Shown: piece by piece, positions 174-24,770 of the stretch | How positions within the stretch are numbered: position 1 is the stretch's first letter | How the letters are laid out: the number at the start of each line of letters is the position of its first letter | Assembly (NCBI RefSeq): GCF_000015825.1 | Contig: NC_009051.1 | Location: 558,001-622,000, forward strand | Length of the DNA: 64,000 nucleotides | Direction of reading: 5' to 3' | From: Methanoculleus marisnigri JR1 | GTDB lineage: Archaea; Halobacteriota; Methanomicrobia; Methanomicrobiales; Methanoculleaceae | Notes under the pieces: generated by a model | Told to the model about the DNA's origin: nothing | The model's input: the letters and a program-made list of their open reading frames with translations, nothing else | Database searches by the model: none | Position numbers and translations under genes: made by a program

Positions 174-618
174 TCTCGCCAGCCAGAAGCGAATAGCGGC
201 CGCCATTCTCAAGTGCGGGGTCAACCGTGTCTGGTTCGATCCCGAGCGTCAGGCCGATATCGAGGGAGCGATCTCGAGAAACGACCTGCGCGAACTTATC
301 GGGGAAGGCGCGATCAGCGCGCACCCCGTGAAGGGAAACAGCCGCGGCCGAGCCCGCATCCGGATGGCAAAGCGTTCCTACGGCCACCGGAAAGGTCCGG
401 GGCGGAGGAAGGGTGCTGCCGGAGCACGCGGTTCCAGCAAACGGTCATGGATCAGGAAGATCCGTGCACAGCGCCGCACTCTGCGCGAGATGCGCGAAGA
501 AGGTACAATCGAGAGGAGTCTCTACCGCCTGATGTATCGGCGGGCTTCCGGAGGTCAGTTCCGGAGCGTGGCGCACCTTGAGGCTCAGATTGAGATAACG
601 GCAGGGAGGATGAAATAA
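166..618 (+). CDS. rpl19e: Ribosomal protein L19e
   Basis: This encodes a 150-residue 50S subunit protein. The N-terminus (SDLASQKRIAAAIL) and the basic centre (SYGHRKGPGRRKG, then RSWIRKIRAQRR) are typical of archaeal/eukaryotic L19e, and the length matches the family. The ATG overlaps the L32e stop by 8 bp, and its own stop overlaps the L18 start by one base, so translation is probably coupled. It lies in the order L32e-L19e-L18-S5-L30-L15-SecY seen across euryarchaea. Confidence 0.96.
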   Translation: MSDLASQKRIAAAILKCGVNRVWFDPERQADIEGAISRNDLRELIGEGAISAHPVKGNSRGRARIRMAKRSYGHRKGPGRRKGAAGARGSSKRSWIRKIRAQRRTLREMREEGTIERSLYRLMYRRASGGQFRSVAHLEAQIEITAGRMK

Positions 619-17958: not shown

Positions 17959-18924
17959 ATGGGCAATCTGAATGTTGCCGTGCTGGGACCCGTCGGTTAC
18001 GCAAAAGACCTCGGGAAAAAAGGCACGGAATCCGATATCACCTTTTATAACCTGAAGAAGGGCGAGGACACCGTCACCGTCATCGAGCCTACCCGGTATC
18101 CCGAACGGCTGGCGCCGCTCTTCTACGCCGCATCGATGGCGGATGCGGCTCTCGTCGTGGTGAGCGAGATCACGCCGATGCTCGGGGAGTGGGTGTTGAT
18201 GCTCAATGAGGCGGGGGTGGAGCGGGGCTACATTGTCCTCCGAAACTACCTGACCCCGGAAGACGTCGCGCCGCTCCTGCGCGGGACGGTGCTCGAGCAT
18301 TACGCGTTCGTGGACACCGACCCGATCGCGCTGCGCGATCTCCTGCTTGGCGAGGCGCATACCCGCTCCTCCGTCCCGTCCGCCGCCGGTGTTGTGGGAA
18401 CCATCCCCATCGACCACCACTTCAACGTCCGCGGCATCGGGACGGTCATCCTCGGCGGCGTGGTGCGGGGCGGCATCAGGAAGCACGACACCCTGAAGGT
18501 CTACCCCGGGGAGCAGGCGATCACGGTGCGCTCTATCCAGAAGCACGACGACGACTTCGACTGGGCCGCCGAGGGCGACCGCGTGGGGCTTGCGCTCAAG
18601 AACATCGAGTCCGACGACCTCGACCGCGGGTTCGTCCTCTCCAATGACCCCGCAATCCGGCTGGGTGCGAAGGTTGAGGCACGGGCGACCCTGGTCAGGT
18701 ACTGGCCGGCGCCGCTCACGGCAGGGACGGTGCTCCACCTCGGCCACTGGATGCAGTTCATCCCGGCGCGGGTGGAGGCGGTGCGGGACGACGGGGACTG
18801 GCGGCAACCGACGCTGACGCTCGTGCTCGAGCGGGATCTCGTCTACCTCCCGGGCGACGCGGCGGTGCTCCACTACCTCGAGGGCGGGAAACTCCGGATC
18901 GCCGGGCATATCGAGCTCGCGTGA
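17959..18924 (+). CDS. SelB/EF-Tu-like protein with degenerate GTPase domain
   Basis: This encodes 321 residues. The C-terminal two-thirds look like translation-factor domains II and III: IPIDHHFNVRGIGTVILGGVVRGGIRKHDTLKVYPG (about 153-188) is close to archaeal SelB. The N-terminal third corresponds in place to a GTP-binding domain but lacks the P-loop: the GHVDHGKT position reads GPVGYAKDLGKKG. The DCPGH and NKxD motifs are also missing. It therefore probably does not bind GTP in the usual way. It stands alone between btuC and mtrH. No selenoprotein is apparent in the window. Function unknown. Confidence 0.75.
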   Translation: MGNLNVAVLGPVGYAKDLGKKGTESDITFYNLKKGEDTVTVIEPTRYPERLAPLFYAASMADAALVVVSEITPMLGEWVLMLNEAGVERGYIVLRNYLTPEDVAPLLRGTVLEHYAFVDTDPIALRDLLLGEAHTRSSVPSAAGVVGTIPIDHHFNVRGIGTVILGGVVRGGIRKHDTLKVYPGEQAITVRSIQKHDDDFDWAAEGDRVGLALKNIESDDLDRGFVLSNDPAIRLGAKVEARATLVRYWPAPLTAGTVLHLGHWMQFIPARVEAVRDDGDWRQPTLTLVLERDLVYLPGDAAVLHYLEGGKLRIAGHIELA

Positions 18925-19136: not shown

Positions 19137-20174
19137 TTAGATGAGCCTGAAGAGCGGGTGGGTGTCCACCTGGGGCTCGATGCCGAAGTCGCGTGCCGCT
19201 TCCAGCACGACGATGTCGGTGTAGGCCTGTGCGGTGATCATCGCCTCGACGTTCTCGATCGGGCCGTACATGATCAGGTCGGCACCGAGGGTGCTTGCAA
19301 TCATGTTGCAGCCGATATCGGGCGCAGACCAGGCCGCCTGGCGCAGACCGTCCGTACCACCGAGGTAGTGGTGCAGGAGCTGCTCAACGAGTCCTTCTTT
19401 GCCCTCGAGACCGGCAAGCTGCTGTGAGGGAGTCTTCTTCGTTCCCTTCCAGCGCTTCAGCCAGGTCCAGGAGACGGTCATGTTGTGGTAGGCACCGCCG
19501 GTCGGCAGGCCGTGGATCGCCTTGCAGGCGAGAATCTCACGGTACGAACCGCCGGAACCGAGACCGAGCGGGGTTGCCGCGGTGTCGAGGATCGGGCGGG
19601 TGATGCCGCACTTCTCCGCGATCTCGAGCATACCCATCTCCTGTCCCGCGACGCCGCCCTCGGTCAGGACCTTCTCGCGGCCGGCAACCGACGGGTCGCC
19701 GGGGTTGAAGGCAAGGACGATTGCTGCGTTCACGTCGCTCTTTGCCAGCGCCTCGATGTTCTCGGGCAGGATCGAGCCGTTGATCGAGTTGTAGATCGCA
19801 CGGTCCGCAATGCCGGCCTGGGTGACGTACTCGCACGCGTGGGCGAGCGCCGCCGGGACGGACGAGTCCATCAGGAACGCGGTCTTGTCATCGATGCTGC
19901 AGAACCAGTCGATGTAACTCTCGAAGGCCTCGCCGAACTCCCCGATGATCTGGATGAAGTGCGGAATGCCGGTGATATCCGAGAGTTCCTGGCAGCGGTT
20001 CCAGAGCGCCTCTGCCTTTTCCTTGTCAATCTTTCCAGTGTGGTCATCCAGTACAACTTCGTGCTTGTTGTAGAAGATGGATGCACCGAGCACGGTCGGG
20101 TATTCTCCAGGCTGCCCGCCGATTTTGGTACCGTTGAAGTCGTGTACCGTCTGCTCTTTTTCGAATTTGAACAT
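19137..20174 (-). CDS. mtrH: Tetrahydromethanopterin S-methyltransferase subunit H
   Basis: This encodes 345 residues from the ATG at 20174 (MFKFEKEQTVHDFNGTKIGGQPGEYPTVLG). MtrH is the soluble TIM-barrel subunit that moves the methyl group from methyl-tetrahydromethanopterin to the cobalt of the corrinoid on MtrA. Diagnostic segments include FNPGDPSVAGREKVL, LDTAATPLGLGSGGSYRE and SWTWLKRWKGTKKT. It is the last gene of the mtr operon, 15 bp after the fused mtrA-mtrG gene, with a GGAGG site upstream. Confidence 0.96.
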   Translation of the reverse strand: MFKFEKEQTVHDFNGTKIGGQPGEYPTVLGASIFYNKHEVVLDDHTGKIDKEKAEALWNRCQELSDITGIPHFIQIIGEFGEAFESYIDWFCSIDDKTAFLMDSSVPAALAHACEYVTQAGIADRAIYNSINGSILPENIEALAKSDVNAAIVLAFNPGDPSVAGREKVLTEGGVAGQEMGMLEIAEKCGITRPILDTAATPLGLGSGGSYREILACKAIHGLPTGGAYHNMTVSWTWLKRWKGTKKTPSQQLAGLEGKEGLVEQLLHHYLGGTDGLRQAAWSAPDIGCNMIASTLGADLIMYGPIENVEAMITAQAYTDIVVLEAARDFGIEPQVDTHPLFRLI

Positions 20175-20189
20175 ATTCGTCAATCCTCC

Positions 20190-20927
20190 TTACAGATACC
20201 CAATCAATTTGGGCAGTAATACCAACAACATCATGAATACAATCAAACCTGCGACCAGTCCGTACAGGATGCCGATATCGCGCCCGATCTTTCTTCCAAC
20301 ACGCTGGGCGATCTCGGCATCGACGAACTCGATCCGCTCCTCAATGGCGTTGAGCCGTTCCTCGATCTCAAGGAACTGCGGGTTTGCACCTGCAACGGCG
20401 ACTTCCGCCGCACCGCCTGCTTCCTTGACCTCGACGATCATGGGTTCCGCGCCGAAGGCACCTGGGTCTCTGGCCTTGAGCTCGTCGATCTTGGCCTTGA
20501 TGGCACCCATGTCCTCGCTTTCCATGATGTTGACGATCTCGATCTGTTCCTGGAAGCGGCTGATCGCATCGTCGGAGAGGTTCTCGATGAACGGGATTGC
20601 TCCCTGGGCGCCGACAATCTTTCCGCCGGAGACTCCGCCTTCGTGCAGGGCAATGAAGCTCTGCCCGGACAGATGTCCCTTGACCTCCGTACCGCAGCAG
20701 AGGATGAACCTGATGTTGGGGTTGGAGATGACGTTCGCGATGATCTTCTCAAGGCCGAGATTCTCGGTCTTGCAGGACCCGGCGATTGCCGCTCCGGCAT
20801 CGCAGATGCCCTGCTCGTCGAGGTGGGATCCCATGGTGACGACGCCGACGCAACTCTGTGCATCTCCCGTGTGGAAGTCGCCCTGAACAATCGGCCATCC
20901 GCTGGCCGGTGATTTCTTTTCAACCAT
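20190..20927 (-). CDS. MtrA corrinoid domain fused to MtrG
   Basis: This encodes 245 residues in the operon position of mtrG. Residues 1 to about 173 are the same as the cytoplasmic corrinoid domain of the neighbouring MtrA, including the cobalt-ligand His in VKGHLSGQS (His85). The remaining 70 residues are a typical Mtr[37 protein letters not shown] followed by one transmembrane helix. At DNA level the N-terminal part is a near-perfect copy of mtrA. The product would bring a second corrinoid domain to each Mtr protomer, anchored by the MtrG helix. MtrG elsewhere is only about 70-90 residues, so this is a real fusion. Its start lies one base after the mtrF stop. Confidence 0.92.
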
Positions 20928-20930
20928 GTT
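20407..20930 (-). repeat. Direct repeat, copy in mtrA-mtrG fusion
   Basis: This 524-bp segment matches 21346-21869 in the same orientation, offset 939 bp. By eye the only difference is 20427 (G) versus 21366 (A). It runs from three bases upstream of the ATG to codon 174. Sequence on both sides diverges at once. Confidence 0.95.
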
Positions 20931-21138
20931 AGATCGCCCCCAGCAGCAGTGCCGGAATCACAATCAGAAGCACGGCTACGATGAGCCCAATCGCGAATCC
21001 GAGGATCCCCATGCCCATGATGCCCGACTCAAGTTTGGTCGTGCGGGCAAGGATCTGTGCCTTGTACCGGATGGAGTCCATCATTCTGTTGATCGAGGTC
21101 ATCCGGATGGGGCCTGCCTGTGTAACTTCTTCTGCCAT
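20929..21138 (-). CDS. mtrF: Tetrahydromethanopterin S-methyltransferase subunit F
   Basis: This encodes 69 residues: a short cytoplasmic N-terminus ([32 protein letters not shown]) and one transmembrane helix at the C-terminus ([26 protein letters not shown]). The size, the single helix and the location between mtrA and mtrG match MtrF of the membrane-bound, sodium-pumping Mtr complex. Start 5 bp after the mtrA stop. Confidence 0.93.
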
Positions 21139-21143
21139 TTATC

Positions 21144-21866
21144 TCACCCCAGCAAGATGAACCCCAGAATCACGAACGAGACGATCAGGCCGATCATGAG
21201 ACCCTCGATCTTGCCCGAGTAGACACCGGCGGCAAACTTGTTGCGATAGCCTATGTCGGTGACCATCCGCTCGATGACTTTCATCCGTGCGTGTACCAGT
21301 GCCAGTTCGCCGGAGAGCGGCTGCACTTCACCGGTCGCTTCCTCTGCCGCACCGCCTGCTTCCTTAACCTCGACGATCATGGGTTCCGCGCCGAAGGCAC
21401 CTGGGTCTCTGGCCTTGAGCTCGTCGATCTTGGCCTTGATGGCACCCATGTCCTCGCTTTCCATGATGTTGACGATCTCGATCTGTTCCTGGAAGCGGCT
21501 GATCGCATCGTCGGAGAGGTTCTCGATGAACGGGATTGCTCCCTGGGCGCCGACAATCTTTCCGCCGGAGACTCCGCCTTCGTGCAGGGCAATGAAGCTC
21601 TGCCCGGACAGATGTCCCTTGACCTCCGTACCGCAGCAGAGGATGAACCTGATGTTGGGGTTGGAGATGACGTTCGCGATGATCTTCTCAAGGCCGAGAT
21701 TCTCGGTCTTGCAGGACCCGGCGATTGCCGCTCCGGCATCGCAGATGCCCTGCTCGTCGAGGTGGGATCCCATGGTGACGACGCCGACGCAACTCTGTGC
21801 ATCTCCCGTGTGGAAGTCGCCCTGAACAATCGGCCATCCGCTGGCCGGTGATTTCTTTTCAACCAT
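21144..21866 (-). CDS. mtrA: Tetrahydromethanopterin S-methyltransferase subunit A
   Basis: This encodes 240 residues. The ATG at 21866 is chosen because a GAGGTGA site lies 9 nt upstream; an in-frame GTG at 21878 would add MKKN. The cytoplasmic corrinoid domain (about 1-173) starts [19 protein letters not shown] and carries the cobalt-coordinating His in GHLSGQS (His85). A linker ([21 protein letters not shown]) and the segment [21 protein letters not shown] with a C-terminal membrane helix follow. It carries the methyl group between MtrH and coenzyme M via MtrE. The corrinoid domain is duplicated in the downstream gene. Confidence 0.96.
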
Positions 21867-21879: not shown

Positions 21880-22164
21880 TCACAGCAGTCCTAATACGAC
21901 GACACCGGCAACCAGAAGGCCGATTGCCATGCCGTACCAGAATGCGGTCACGCCTCCGGCGACGTTGAGAACACCTTCCCTGTTCGGGAACGATGCCAGG
22001 AAGTTGCCCTCTCCGGAGAGCATGCCGACCAGGTCGTCGGTAATCTTCTCAAGTTCCGTCACCTGCTCGAGCACGGGGGTGTACGAGACACCGGCGGTGG
22101 TGACAATGCCGACCATCGGGTCGACGACCAGGCCGAACTCGGGCAGTACCTGAACGTATGCCAT
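21880..22164 (-). CDS. mtrB: Tetrahydromethanopterin S-methyltransferase subunit B
   Basis: This encodes 94 residues. The N-terminus [21 protein letters not shown] and the central [18 protein letters not shown], followed by one C-terminal helix ([20 protein letters not shown]), match MtrB. It lies between mtrC and mtrA in the standard order, abutting mtrC. Confidence 0.94.
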
Positions 22165-23016
22165 TTAGGCACCTCCCTTGGGCTCCATAATGGGCTGAGC
22201 GTCGAGCCATGCGTAGGCGTCACGCTTCGAGAGCGCGATGTACTTCGTGTAGGTGTAGAGCCACCCGATGATGGAGATCACCAGTGCGACGAGAGCTGGA
22301 AGGAGTCCGATGAACGCGAACGAGATGATCGCGACGGTGATCATGGAGAGGAATCCACACTCTGCTGCGAGCGTGAGTGTCCGGTCCTGCTGCTCTCCCG
22401 GCCCGAGACAGGCGTTGAAGGAGTGCTGGATGGCGATAGCGCCGAGCATGAAGATCACGGCGATGATGCTGCCGCCGATGACCGAAGTCTCGTAGGTCAG
22501 CATGGTGAACCCGAGGAAGGATACCGTGCCGGTGATCATGTTGAGGAACTCGAACGACCCGCAGGCCATGGCCGCGAGGCCGAGCACCGTCATTGCACCG
22601 ACGATGGCAAGCTCGATCAGCGAGATGACCATGACGGGGATGTCCATCCGGACAACGTGGTTTGCCATCAGCCCGGCGACCGCGCCGATGATTGCGGCGA
22701 TGATGACCGTCACGATGGGCGCGAGTATGCCGGTCGTGGCTCCGAAGAGCGCGGCGATGACACCGGACCCGAGGGCGATCATACCCGCCGACGGGACACC
22801 GGTACCGAGACCGTAACTGCAAAGGTGCTTGATCGTGTCGGTACCCCAGATGAGTGCGGCGACGGCGGCAAGCCCGCCGAAGAACGCGAAGTACTGGGTC
22901 TGGAAGTACGTGTTCAGGTATGTCAGGTAAATCAGGACGAGCGATCCCACAAGTCCGAAGATCAGGACCTGGTTGTGCGGGATGCCGCCTGCTCCGACTT
23001 CAATTTTCACTGACAT
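22165..23016 (-). CDS. mtrC: Tetrahydromethanopterin S-methyltransferase subunit C
   Basis: This encodes a 283-residue polytopic membrane protein. MtrC, MtrD and MtrE form the membrane core that couples methyl transfer to sodium extrusion. Typical segments are SYGLGTGVPSAGMIALGSGVIAALFGA, LMANHVVRMDIPVMVISLIELAIVGAM and QHSFNACLGPGEQQDRTL. Genes abut on both sides without a gap. Confidence 0.95.
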   Translation of the reverse strand: MSVKIEVGAGGIPHNQVLIFGLVGSLVLIYLTYLNTYFQTQYFAFFGGLAAVAALIWGTDTIKHLCSYGLGTGVPSAGMIALGSGVIAALFGATTGILAPIVTVIIAAIIGAVAGLMANHVVRMDIPVMVISLIELAIVGAMTVLGLAAMACGSFEFLNMITGTVSFLGFTMLTYETSVIGGSIIAVIFMLGAIAIQHSFNACLGPGEQQDRTLTLAAECGFLSMITVAIISFAFIGLLPALVALVISIIGWLYTYTKYIALSKRDAYAWLDAQPIMEPKGGA

Positions 23017-23868
23017 TTAGAATACCCCCACCAGTTCGAGCAGCGCAATCGCGAAGAAACCTGCAATGGCGGATGCCACGGCGGCTGCGATGATCGCTCT
23101 CGGGAACCGCTTGAACTTGGGGTCGTGCGGCCCTTCGATAGTACCGGTGATGTTGTATGCCGCAAGCACGGCGTTGATCAGGAACATAGCGACCGCGAAG
23201 ACGCCGGCAAGCGAGATTGCGACGGGCGCGATCTGCTCGACCGTGGCGTCCAGGATTACGGGCAGCTGTGCCTGGTAAACGTCGAGGAGCTCGAGGTAGA
23301 TGAGCGTGCCGCCGAGACCTCCGAGTGCGCCGCCGATGACGCCGCCGACCCAGGAGATGAACGGGAGGCCGTGCCCCTCGGTACCCTGGCTCTTGTACTC
23401 GGGGAAGGTGTCGCCCGTGATCGGGTCCTTGTCGACCTTACCGGATGCTGCCGGGATGCCCATGCCGAAGATGTAGATGACATTGACCATCGTACAGGTG
23501 ATCGCCATCAACAGTCCGCCGCCGACCGCACCGCCCGCGAGGGCGACTGCGAGTCCGAACGGAGCGGCCCATGCGCCGCCGAAGAGTCCGGCAAGGCCGG
23601 CACCGGCCGCGAGCATCGCGACACCGGTCGCGATACCGGGCGACTGTCCCATTGCAGCGGGGGCACCGCCGACCGGGACGAAGTGGACGCCGAATGCGAC
23701 CAGGACACCGCCGATGATGATGCCGACGAGGGCAAGCACTCCGGCCATCTGTACGAGGTAGTAGGCGAGTCCGAGCGCGACGATGATAAGAACGATGCTG
23801 AGGACGATGCCCATTGCCGTTGGGGGCTGGATGCCTCCTGTCTGTTTAGGTCCGCCGAGTGCGCTCAT
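23017..23868 (-). CDS. mtrD: Tetrahydromethanopterin S-methyltransferase subunit D
   Basis: This encodes a 283-residue membrane protein with multiple Gly/Ala-rich helices. Recognisable segments include VHFVPVGGAPAAMGQSPGIATGVAMLAAGAGLAGLFGG, TCTMVNVIYIFGMGIPAASGKVDKDPITGD and YKSQGTEGHGLPFISWVGG. The ATG overlaps the mtrE stop (ATGA), which points to coupled translation. Confidence 0.95.
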   Translation of the reverse strand: MSALGGPKQTGGIQPPTAMGIVLSIVLIIVALGLAYYLVQMAGVLALVGIIIGGVLVAFGVHFVPVGGAPAAMGQSPGIATGVAMLAAGAGLAGLFGGAWAAPFGLAVALAGGAVGGGLLMAITCTMVNVIYIFGMGIPAASGKVDKDPITGDTFPEYKSQGTEGHGLPFISWVGGVIGGALGGLGGTLIYLELLDVYQAQLPVILDATVEQIAPVAISLAGVFAVAMFLINAVLAAYNITGTIEGPHDPKFKRFPRAIIAAAVASAIAGFFAIALLELVGVF

Positions 23869-24770
23869 GACGATGCCTCCTCAGGAGCCTCGGGAGCCGT
23901 GTACGGGCCGAAGTTCTTCCTTGCCCAGACCTCGATGTAGCGGTCGATGATGGCAAAGATCAGGATAACGACGATACCGACGATGATCGGTCCCCAGATG
24001 TTGAGTTCTTCGAAGACCACGGTACGCCAGAGTTCGAAGAAGACGATCAGGCCAAAGCAAATACCCGACGCGGGGCCGCCGAGTTTGGCGCTGAAGAAAC
24101 CGTTGTCGAGCGAGTTCCGCTGGCCGGCCTCGGCGTAGCGGACGATGTTTCCGGACGCAGAGATCGGAACGCCTGCTCCGAACTTCTGCTCCTGGTACTG
24201 CCGCTCCTTTCCGTAGAACGGGTTACCGGTTGCAGATCCAGCCGCACCGAGTGCGATACCCCAGACGAGACCCAGAAGCGGGAGCGGGAAGGGGTGGCCG
24301 AGTGCGCTGATCATCAGGTGACACATCGCGACGGTGGTGAAGATTGCTACGAACGCGTGTGCCATGGTCACGGTCGTCATCGATTTCAGAATATCGATAT
24401 AGACCGGCTGTCCGAACTTGGCGAGACTTGCAGTACGGCCGAGGTATGCGGTAGTCGCATACACGCCCTGCACGAAGACCGCGAGAGCGCTCCCAAGCAC
24501 GATTGCAAGTATCGGGTTTATCTGCATCGCCATGAATGCCCAAGCAAGGCCTGCACCCAGAGCAACCCATAGGCCGTACGCGGGGGGTTCACCGGCAACT
24601 GCCTTGTTGAAGATGCGGTGAATATATCCCATCTGCGGAGCCAGCTGAACCTGCGAGTTCGGGTCACCCTGTGATCCGATATCAGATTCAGTGTCTTCCG
24701 CAGCGCCGGCGACGGTTGCAAGAGCACCTGCCAATGCGGTAATGCCGATGCCAAATACGATCTCTTCCAT
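23865..24770 (-). CDS. mtrE: Tetrahydromethanopterin S-methyltransferase subunit E
   Basis: This encodes a 301-residue membrane protein, first in the mtr operon. Signatures are IGSQGDPNSQVQLAPQMGYIHRIFNKAVAGEPPAYGLW (about 33-70), FGQPVYIDILKSMTTVTMAHAFVAI and GKERQYQEQKFGAGVPISASGNIVRYAEAGQRNS. MtrE takes part in transfer of the methyl group to coenzyme M and in the sodium path. A GGAGGAGG ribosome-binding site precedes the ATG. Confidence 0.96.
   Translation of the reverse strand: MEEIVFGIGITALAGALATVAGAAEDTESDIGSQGDPNSQVQLAPQMGYIHRIFNKAVAGEPPAYGLWVALGAGLAWAFMAMQINPILAIVLGSALAVFVQGVYATTAYLGRTASLAKFGQPVYIDILKSMTTVTMAHAFVAIFTTVAMCHLMISALGHPFPLPLLGLVWGIALGAAGSATGNPFYGKERQYQEQKFGAGVPISASGNIVRYAEAGQRNSLDNGFFSAKLGGPASGICFGLIVFFELWRTVVFEELNIWGPIIVGIVVILIFAIIDRYIEVWARKNFGPYTAPEAPEEASS

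Follow-up and report, generated by a model that had tools for sequence, protein, structure and literature searches.

An MtrA corrinoid domain fused to MtrG in Methanoculleus marisnigri JR1 and other Methanomicrobiales: a candidate second methyl carrier of the Mtr complex

Introduction

The Mtr complex carries out the energy-conserving methyl-transfer step of methanogenesis. In canonical Mtr, as seen by cryo-EM in M. marburgensis (8Q3V) and M. mazei (9QTQ), MtrA and MtrG are separate chains and each protomer holds one corrinoid domain. Methanoculleus marisnigri JR1 differs, since one gene of its mtr operon encodes an MtrA corrinoid domain joined to MtrG, beside a normal mtrA. The question raised by this locus is whether the domain borne by MtrG works as a second methyl carrier or merely looks intact. 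We have analyzed the gene in a stretch of 64,000 nucleotides of the M. marisnigri genome (hereafter the window) and compared it across the order Methanomicrobiales.

The arrangement itself has a history. The first-pass annotation of the window took it to be undescribed, which is incorrect. Anderson et al. 2009 (PMC2686161) had included the A-G fusion among the signatures of Methanomicrobiales, and the name mtrA-2b was given to it by Wang et al. 2015 (PMC4632066), who analyzed it in detail in a species set including M. marisnigri JR1 and explained the near-identity of the two corrinoid domains by long-running gene conversion. The gene of the window shows no difference from mtrA-2b of Methanomicrobiales: it agrees in domain order and in its position, flanked by mtrF and mtrH, in the presence of a normal mtrA, in the lack of a separate mtrG and in the homogenised corrinoid domain. 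The feature is mtrA-2b, an order-wide trait of Methanomicrobiales that is real, was correctly read and had already been described.

Results

The fusion gene starts with ATG, has no internal stops and encodes, in one open frame, an N-terminal MtrA domain followed by a complete MtrG (Table 1). Pfam recognized MtrA (PF04208) at residues 4-173 (4.2e-84, 280.9 bits for a cut-off of 25) and MtrG (PF04210) at residues 183-236 (6.2e-23, 80.9 bits for a cut-off of 27), and the NCBIfam models TIGR01111 (mtrA) and TIGR01149 (mtrG) scored 289.4 and 78.5 bits, above their curated cut-offs of 249.15 and 50.65, respectively. These matches confirm the earlier reading of residues 1-173 as the MtrA corrinoid domain with MtrG behind it, the identity to MtrA running slightly further, through residue 175. 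The two parts are joined by a Gly/Ala-rich linker, and the first ~10-12 residues of an ordinary MtrG are replaced. When mapped onto the Mtr cryo-EM structures, as had been suggested, each region of the fusion matched the MtrA or the MtrG chain of 8Q3V and 9QTQ.

The key residues of MtrA have been defined (PMC4915002): the cobalt-ligand His84, its partner Glu54 and the GAIPF segment. The motif GHLSGQS is present in the fusion, and alignment to solved MtrA structures places its His85 at His84 of M. marburgensis, so that the cobalt ligand is indeed kept as first claimed. Glu55, equivalent to Glu54, and the sequence GAIPFIENL, which holds the GAIPF segment, are present as well. A PF04208 profile search of the single-contig genome (2,478,101 bp) recovered exactly two MtrA domains, and no separate short MtrG was found elsewhere in it, leaving the fused MtrG as the sole copy. 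The first-pass inference of two corrinoid domains per protomer is sound.

Table 1. Features of the mtr locus of M. marisnigri JR1, in positions of the window. The 5' position of each minus-strand gene is its higher coordinate; residue numbers are those of the fusion protein.
Feature	Positions	Strand	Basis
mtrA-2b, MtrA corrinoid domain + MtrG, 245 aa	20190..20927	-	ORF, Pfam, NCBIfam, alignment to mtrA
Fusion protein layout: corrinoid domain ~1-168, linker ~169-182, MtrG ~183-245			
Homogenised tract of the fusion gene, differing from mtrA by a single synonymous base in 521	20407..20927	-	alignment
Homogenised tract in mtrA, repeat partner	21346..21866	-	alignment
mtrA (mtrA-1), corrinoid domain + own C-terminal stalk/membrane helix	21144..21866	-	ORF, profiles
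mtrF, between the two corrinoid-domain genes	20929..21138	-	ORF, profile
mtrH, methyl-H4MPT:corrinoid methyltransferase	19137..20174	-	profile; start Met from alignment with solved MtrH
mtrB	21880..22164	-	profile
mtrC, mtrD, mtrE	22165..24770	-	size, membrane character and operon order from PMC4632066; no profile scan
321-aa protein beyond mtrH	17959..18924	+	Pfam, EF-Tu domain 2 only (4e-11)

The genes are arranged on the minus strand in the order mtrE, mtrD (5' position 23868), mtrC (23016), mtrB, mtrA, mtrF, the A-G fusion and mtrH. The fusion gene occupies the usual place of mtrG, with mtrF on one side, mtrH on the other and the normal mtrA upstream; the stop of mtrF lies 1 base from the fusion ATG. 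MtrH carries an extra segment of ~30 aa (residues ~253-283, PSQQLAGLEGKEGLVEQLLHHYLGGTDGLRQ), which is found throughout Methanomicrobiales. M. mazei MtrH lacks it, as do four genomes of the Methanocella family, of which three encode an MtrA-F fusion. This segment might relate to the handling of two corrinoid domains. On the opposite strand beyond mtrH, the window holds a gene for a 321-aa protein, possibly a translation-factor paralogue without a recognized GTPase domain.

When mtrA and the fusion gene were aligned without gaps from their ATGs, their DNA was identical for 500 bases, and the encoded proteins were identical through residue 175 and unrelated beyond. The copies of this repeat are 939 bp apart. 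The corrinoid domain of the fusion is closer to mtrA of the same genome (100% over 480 compared bases) than to its orthologues.

The first-pass annotation had called for a survey of Methanomicrobiales mtr operons for proteins with MtrA followed by MtrG, and the same layout was found across the order. The mtrA-mtrF-mtrAG layout is present in public genomes of Methanoculleus, Methanogenium, Methanospirillum, Methanolinea and others. MtrG was detected in 100 of 106 near-complete genomes of the order, in frames of at least 226 aa where the locus was intact. A short mtrG, which would have spoken against the fusion, was not seen at gene level, and neither unfused mtrG nor loss of the fusion occurred in the intact loci of the sampled genomes. 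Among the matches listed, no MtrA-G fusion was found outside the order, MtrG frames from other families of the phylum being unfused and 73-143 aa long.

In draft assemblies (L010, L014, L052, L130 and many contig ends) the mtrA repeat is often broken or interrupted by N runs, so that automated annotation can falsely suggest an mtrG that is short and unfused, or the deletion of a corrinoid domain. All the short MtrG frames that were opened, a subset of the total, were cut short by the edge of a contig or by an N run within the repeat, and were rejected as true unfused mtrG. Likewise, the corrinoid domains of L130 and L052 that seemed to lack the cobalt ligand have N runs and broken frames at that very point, and were rejected as assembly gaps.

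Concerted evolution was studied in 59 distinct genomes with both corrinoid domains complete. The DNA identity of the two copies within a genome had a median of 98.3%, while mtrA identity between genomes was 75.8%; the closest sequence was the own paralogue in 50/59 genomes, and the two copies were sisters in the tree in 49/59. These counts are in agreement with the conclusion of Wang et al. His85, Glu55 and the GAIPF segment (GAIAF in five genomes) were found in both copies of all 59 genomes. As gene conversion copies one domain over the other, near-identity and kept residues are by themselves no proof that the second domain is used.

A different pattern was observed in Methanospirillum. Six genomes of the lineage have copies whose DNA identity is just 80-84%. 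The tree groups the Methanospirillum sequences by gene and not by genome, with supports of 100/97 for the fused copies and 89/93 for the mtrA copies, and forcing the two copies of a genome together was rejected in both genomes tested (AU p of 3e-6 and 1e-10, for groups picked after seeing the tree). Seven positions (3, 5, 6, 24 and 159-161) separate the two copies with no overlap. By simple counting, with synonymous sites near saturation, dN/dS was 0.042-0.115 between the copies, 0.048 among fused copies and 0.066 among mtrA copies. Unlike in the order as a whole, gene conversion has lapsed or is rare in Methanospirillum, and purifying selection continues. The species set of Wang et al. included one Methanospirillum species, so that separate paralogue clades could not show, and no description of this exception was found in the literature searched.

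Discussion

We propose that the corrinoid domain of mtrA was duplicated in an ancestor, that the duplicate became joined to the N-terminus of MtrG within the mtr operon to give mtrA-2b, and that gene conversion with mtrA holds the two copies nearly identical in most genomes. The fused domain would act as a second methyl carrier beside that of MtrA, and we give this reading as a whole a probability of roughly 0.7. In the Mtr structures (PMC10998594) the N-termini of the MtrA anchor helix and of MtrG lie next to each other at the cytoplasmic end of the stalk. The linker of the MtrA corrinoid domain is disordered, and the domain has to travel between MtrH and the cavity of MtrCDE. Because of the proximity of these N-termini, the MtrG helix would carry the second corrinoid domain beside that of MtrA, and the MtrG-linked domain, on a flexible Gly/Ala-rich linker similar to that of MtrA, would set out from almost the same place. 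Each trimer would then probably have six mobile corrinoid domains and not three, both types taking the methyl group from MtrH and delivering it to coenzyme M at MtrCDE. That both domains are loaded with cobamide and shuttle is what we infer, and a gain in turnover would be a further step along the same line. In the literature searched, no biochemistry or structure of a Methanomicrobiales Mtr complex was found.

The idea of extra methyl-carrier capacity, put forward in the first-pass annotation, finds indirect support in the catalytic residues kept in all 59 genomes and in the independent purifying selection of Methanospirillum. Divergence of the copies together with low dN/dS in Methanospirillum indicates that the MtrG-borne domain is under purifying selection of its own, and this makes it probable that the stalk of Mtr bears a second methyl carrier that works; the argument rests on one genus. 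A stronger version, a double-carrier Mtr with two active corrinoid domains per protomer, the second under its own selection and with matching changes in MtrH, has in our view about an even chance of being right.

A comparable solution has been described in mtrA-2a, the mtrA-F fusion of Methanococcales and Methanocella arvoryzae (PMC4632066), in which a second homogenised corrinoid domain is likewise placed on another stalk helix. It differs from mtrA-2b in being fused to MtrF and not to MtrG, and is of independent origin according to Wang et al. In one family of the same phylum (f14), three genomes encode MtrA-MtrF fusions with near-identical corrinoid domains, adjoining a normal mtrA, and a fourth has one corrinoid domain only; M. 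arvoryzae was one such MtrA-F species known to Wang et al. (PMC4632066). The cobalt-ligand motif of Methanocella MtrA is GHISGD. The MtrF route taken in other lineages fits the idea that any stalk N-terminus may serve.

The fused domain might instead bind corrinoid and have a specialised role, docking MtrH, acting as a reserve carrier or regulating the complex. Copy-specific features do exist, as illustrated by the seven non-overlapping positions of Methanospirillum, and the ~30-aa segment of Methanomicrobiales MtrH is absent from the Methanosarcina and Methanocella proteins. However, both domains have the same protein sequence in most genomes, where only the anchor and the linker can differ, and we regard such a role as unlikely. 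Nor do we expect the domain to be a passenger, intact through conversion from mtrA and without part in methyl transfer. Conversion alone accounts for the near-identity in most genomes (our 59-genome data; PMC4632066), but the Methanospirillum fused domain keeps all the key residues at a dN/dS of ~0.05 though conversion has lapsed or is rare, the fusion was never lost among the intact loci sampled, and Wang et al. (PMC4632066) cite earlier work in which both mtrA paralogues were essential. A passenger domain is thus quite improbable.

It could also be argued that the fusion gives rise to a short MtrG, through an internal start or proteolysis. An in-frame ATG at codon 163, 20 residues before MtrG, is common across the order; yet this Met163 is part of the MtrA domain and is also present in mtrA, and codons 156-205 of the window's fusion gene hold no other in-frame start, which leaves this explanation very little weight. 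Finally, an artefact of assembly, or a duplication that arose very recently in this one strain, to which the near absence of DNA differences and the breaks or N runs inside the repeat in several draft genomes could point, is refuted by the recurrence of the layout in many independent assemblies, which span all the main lineages of the order and include several single-contig genomes, and by a divergence of the copies that reaches 20% in the DNA of some genomes.

Taken together, these data lead us to favour the MtrG-borne domain as a second methyl carrier. The gene arrangement is not news, and its interest lies in the effect that it may have on the stoichiometry and rate of Mtr. Methanospirillum is the best organism in which to test this effect, since its two copies can be distinguished by sequence. 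The fusion offers a natural test of the number of corrinoid carriers that an Mtr trimer can use, and of the way in which these carriers are shared by MtrH and MtrCDE.
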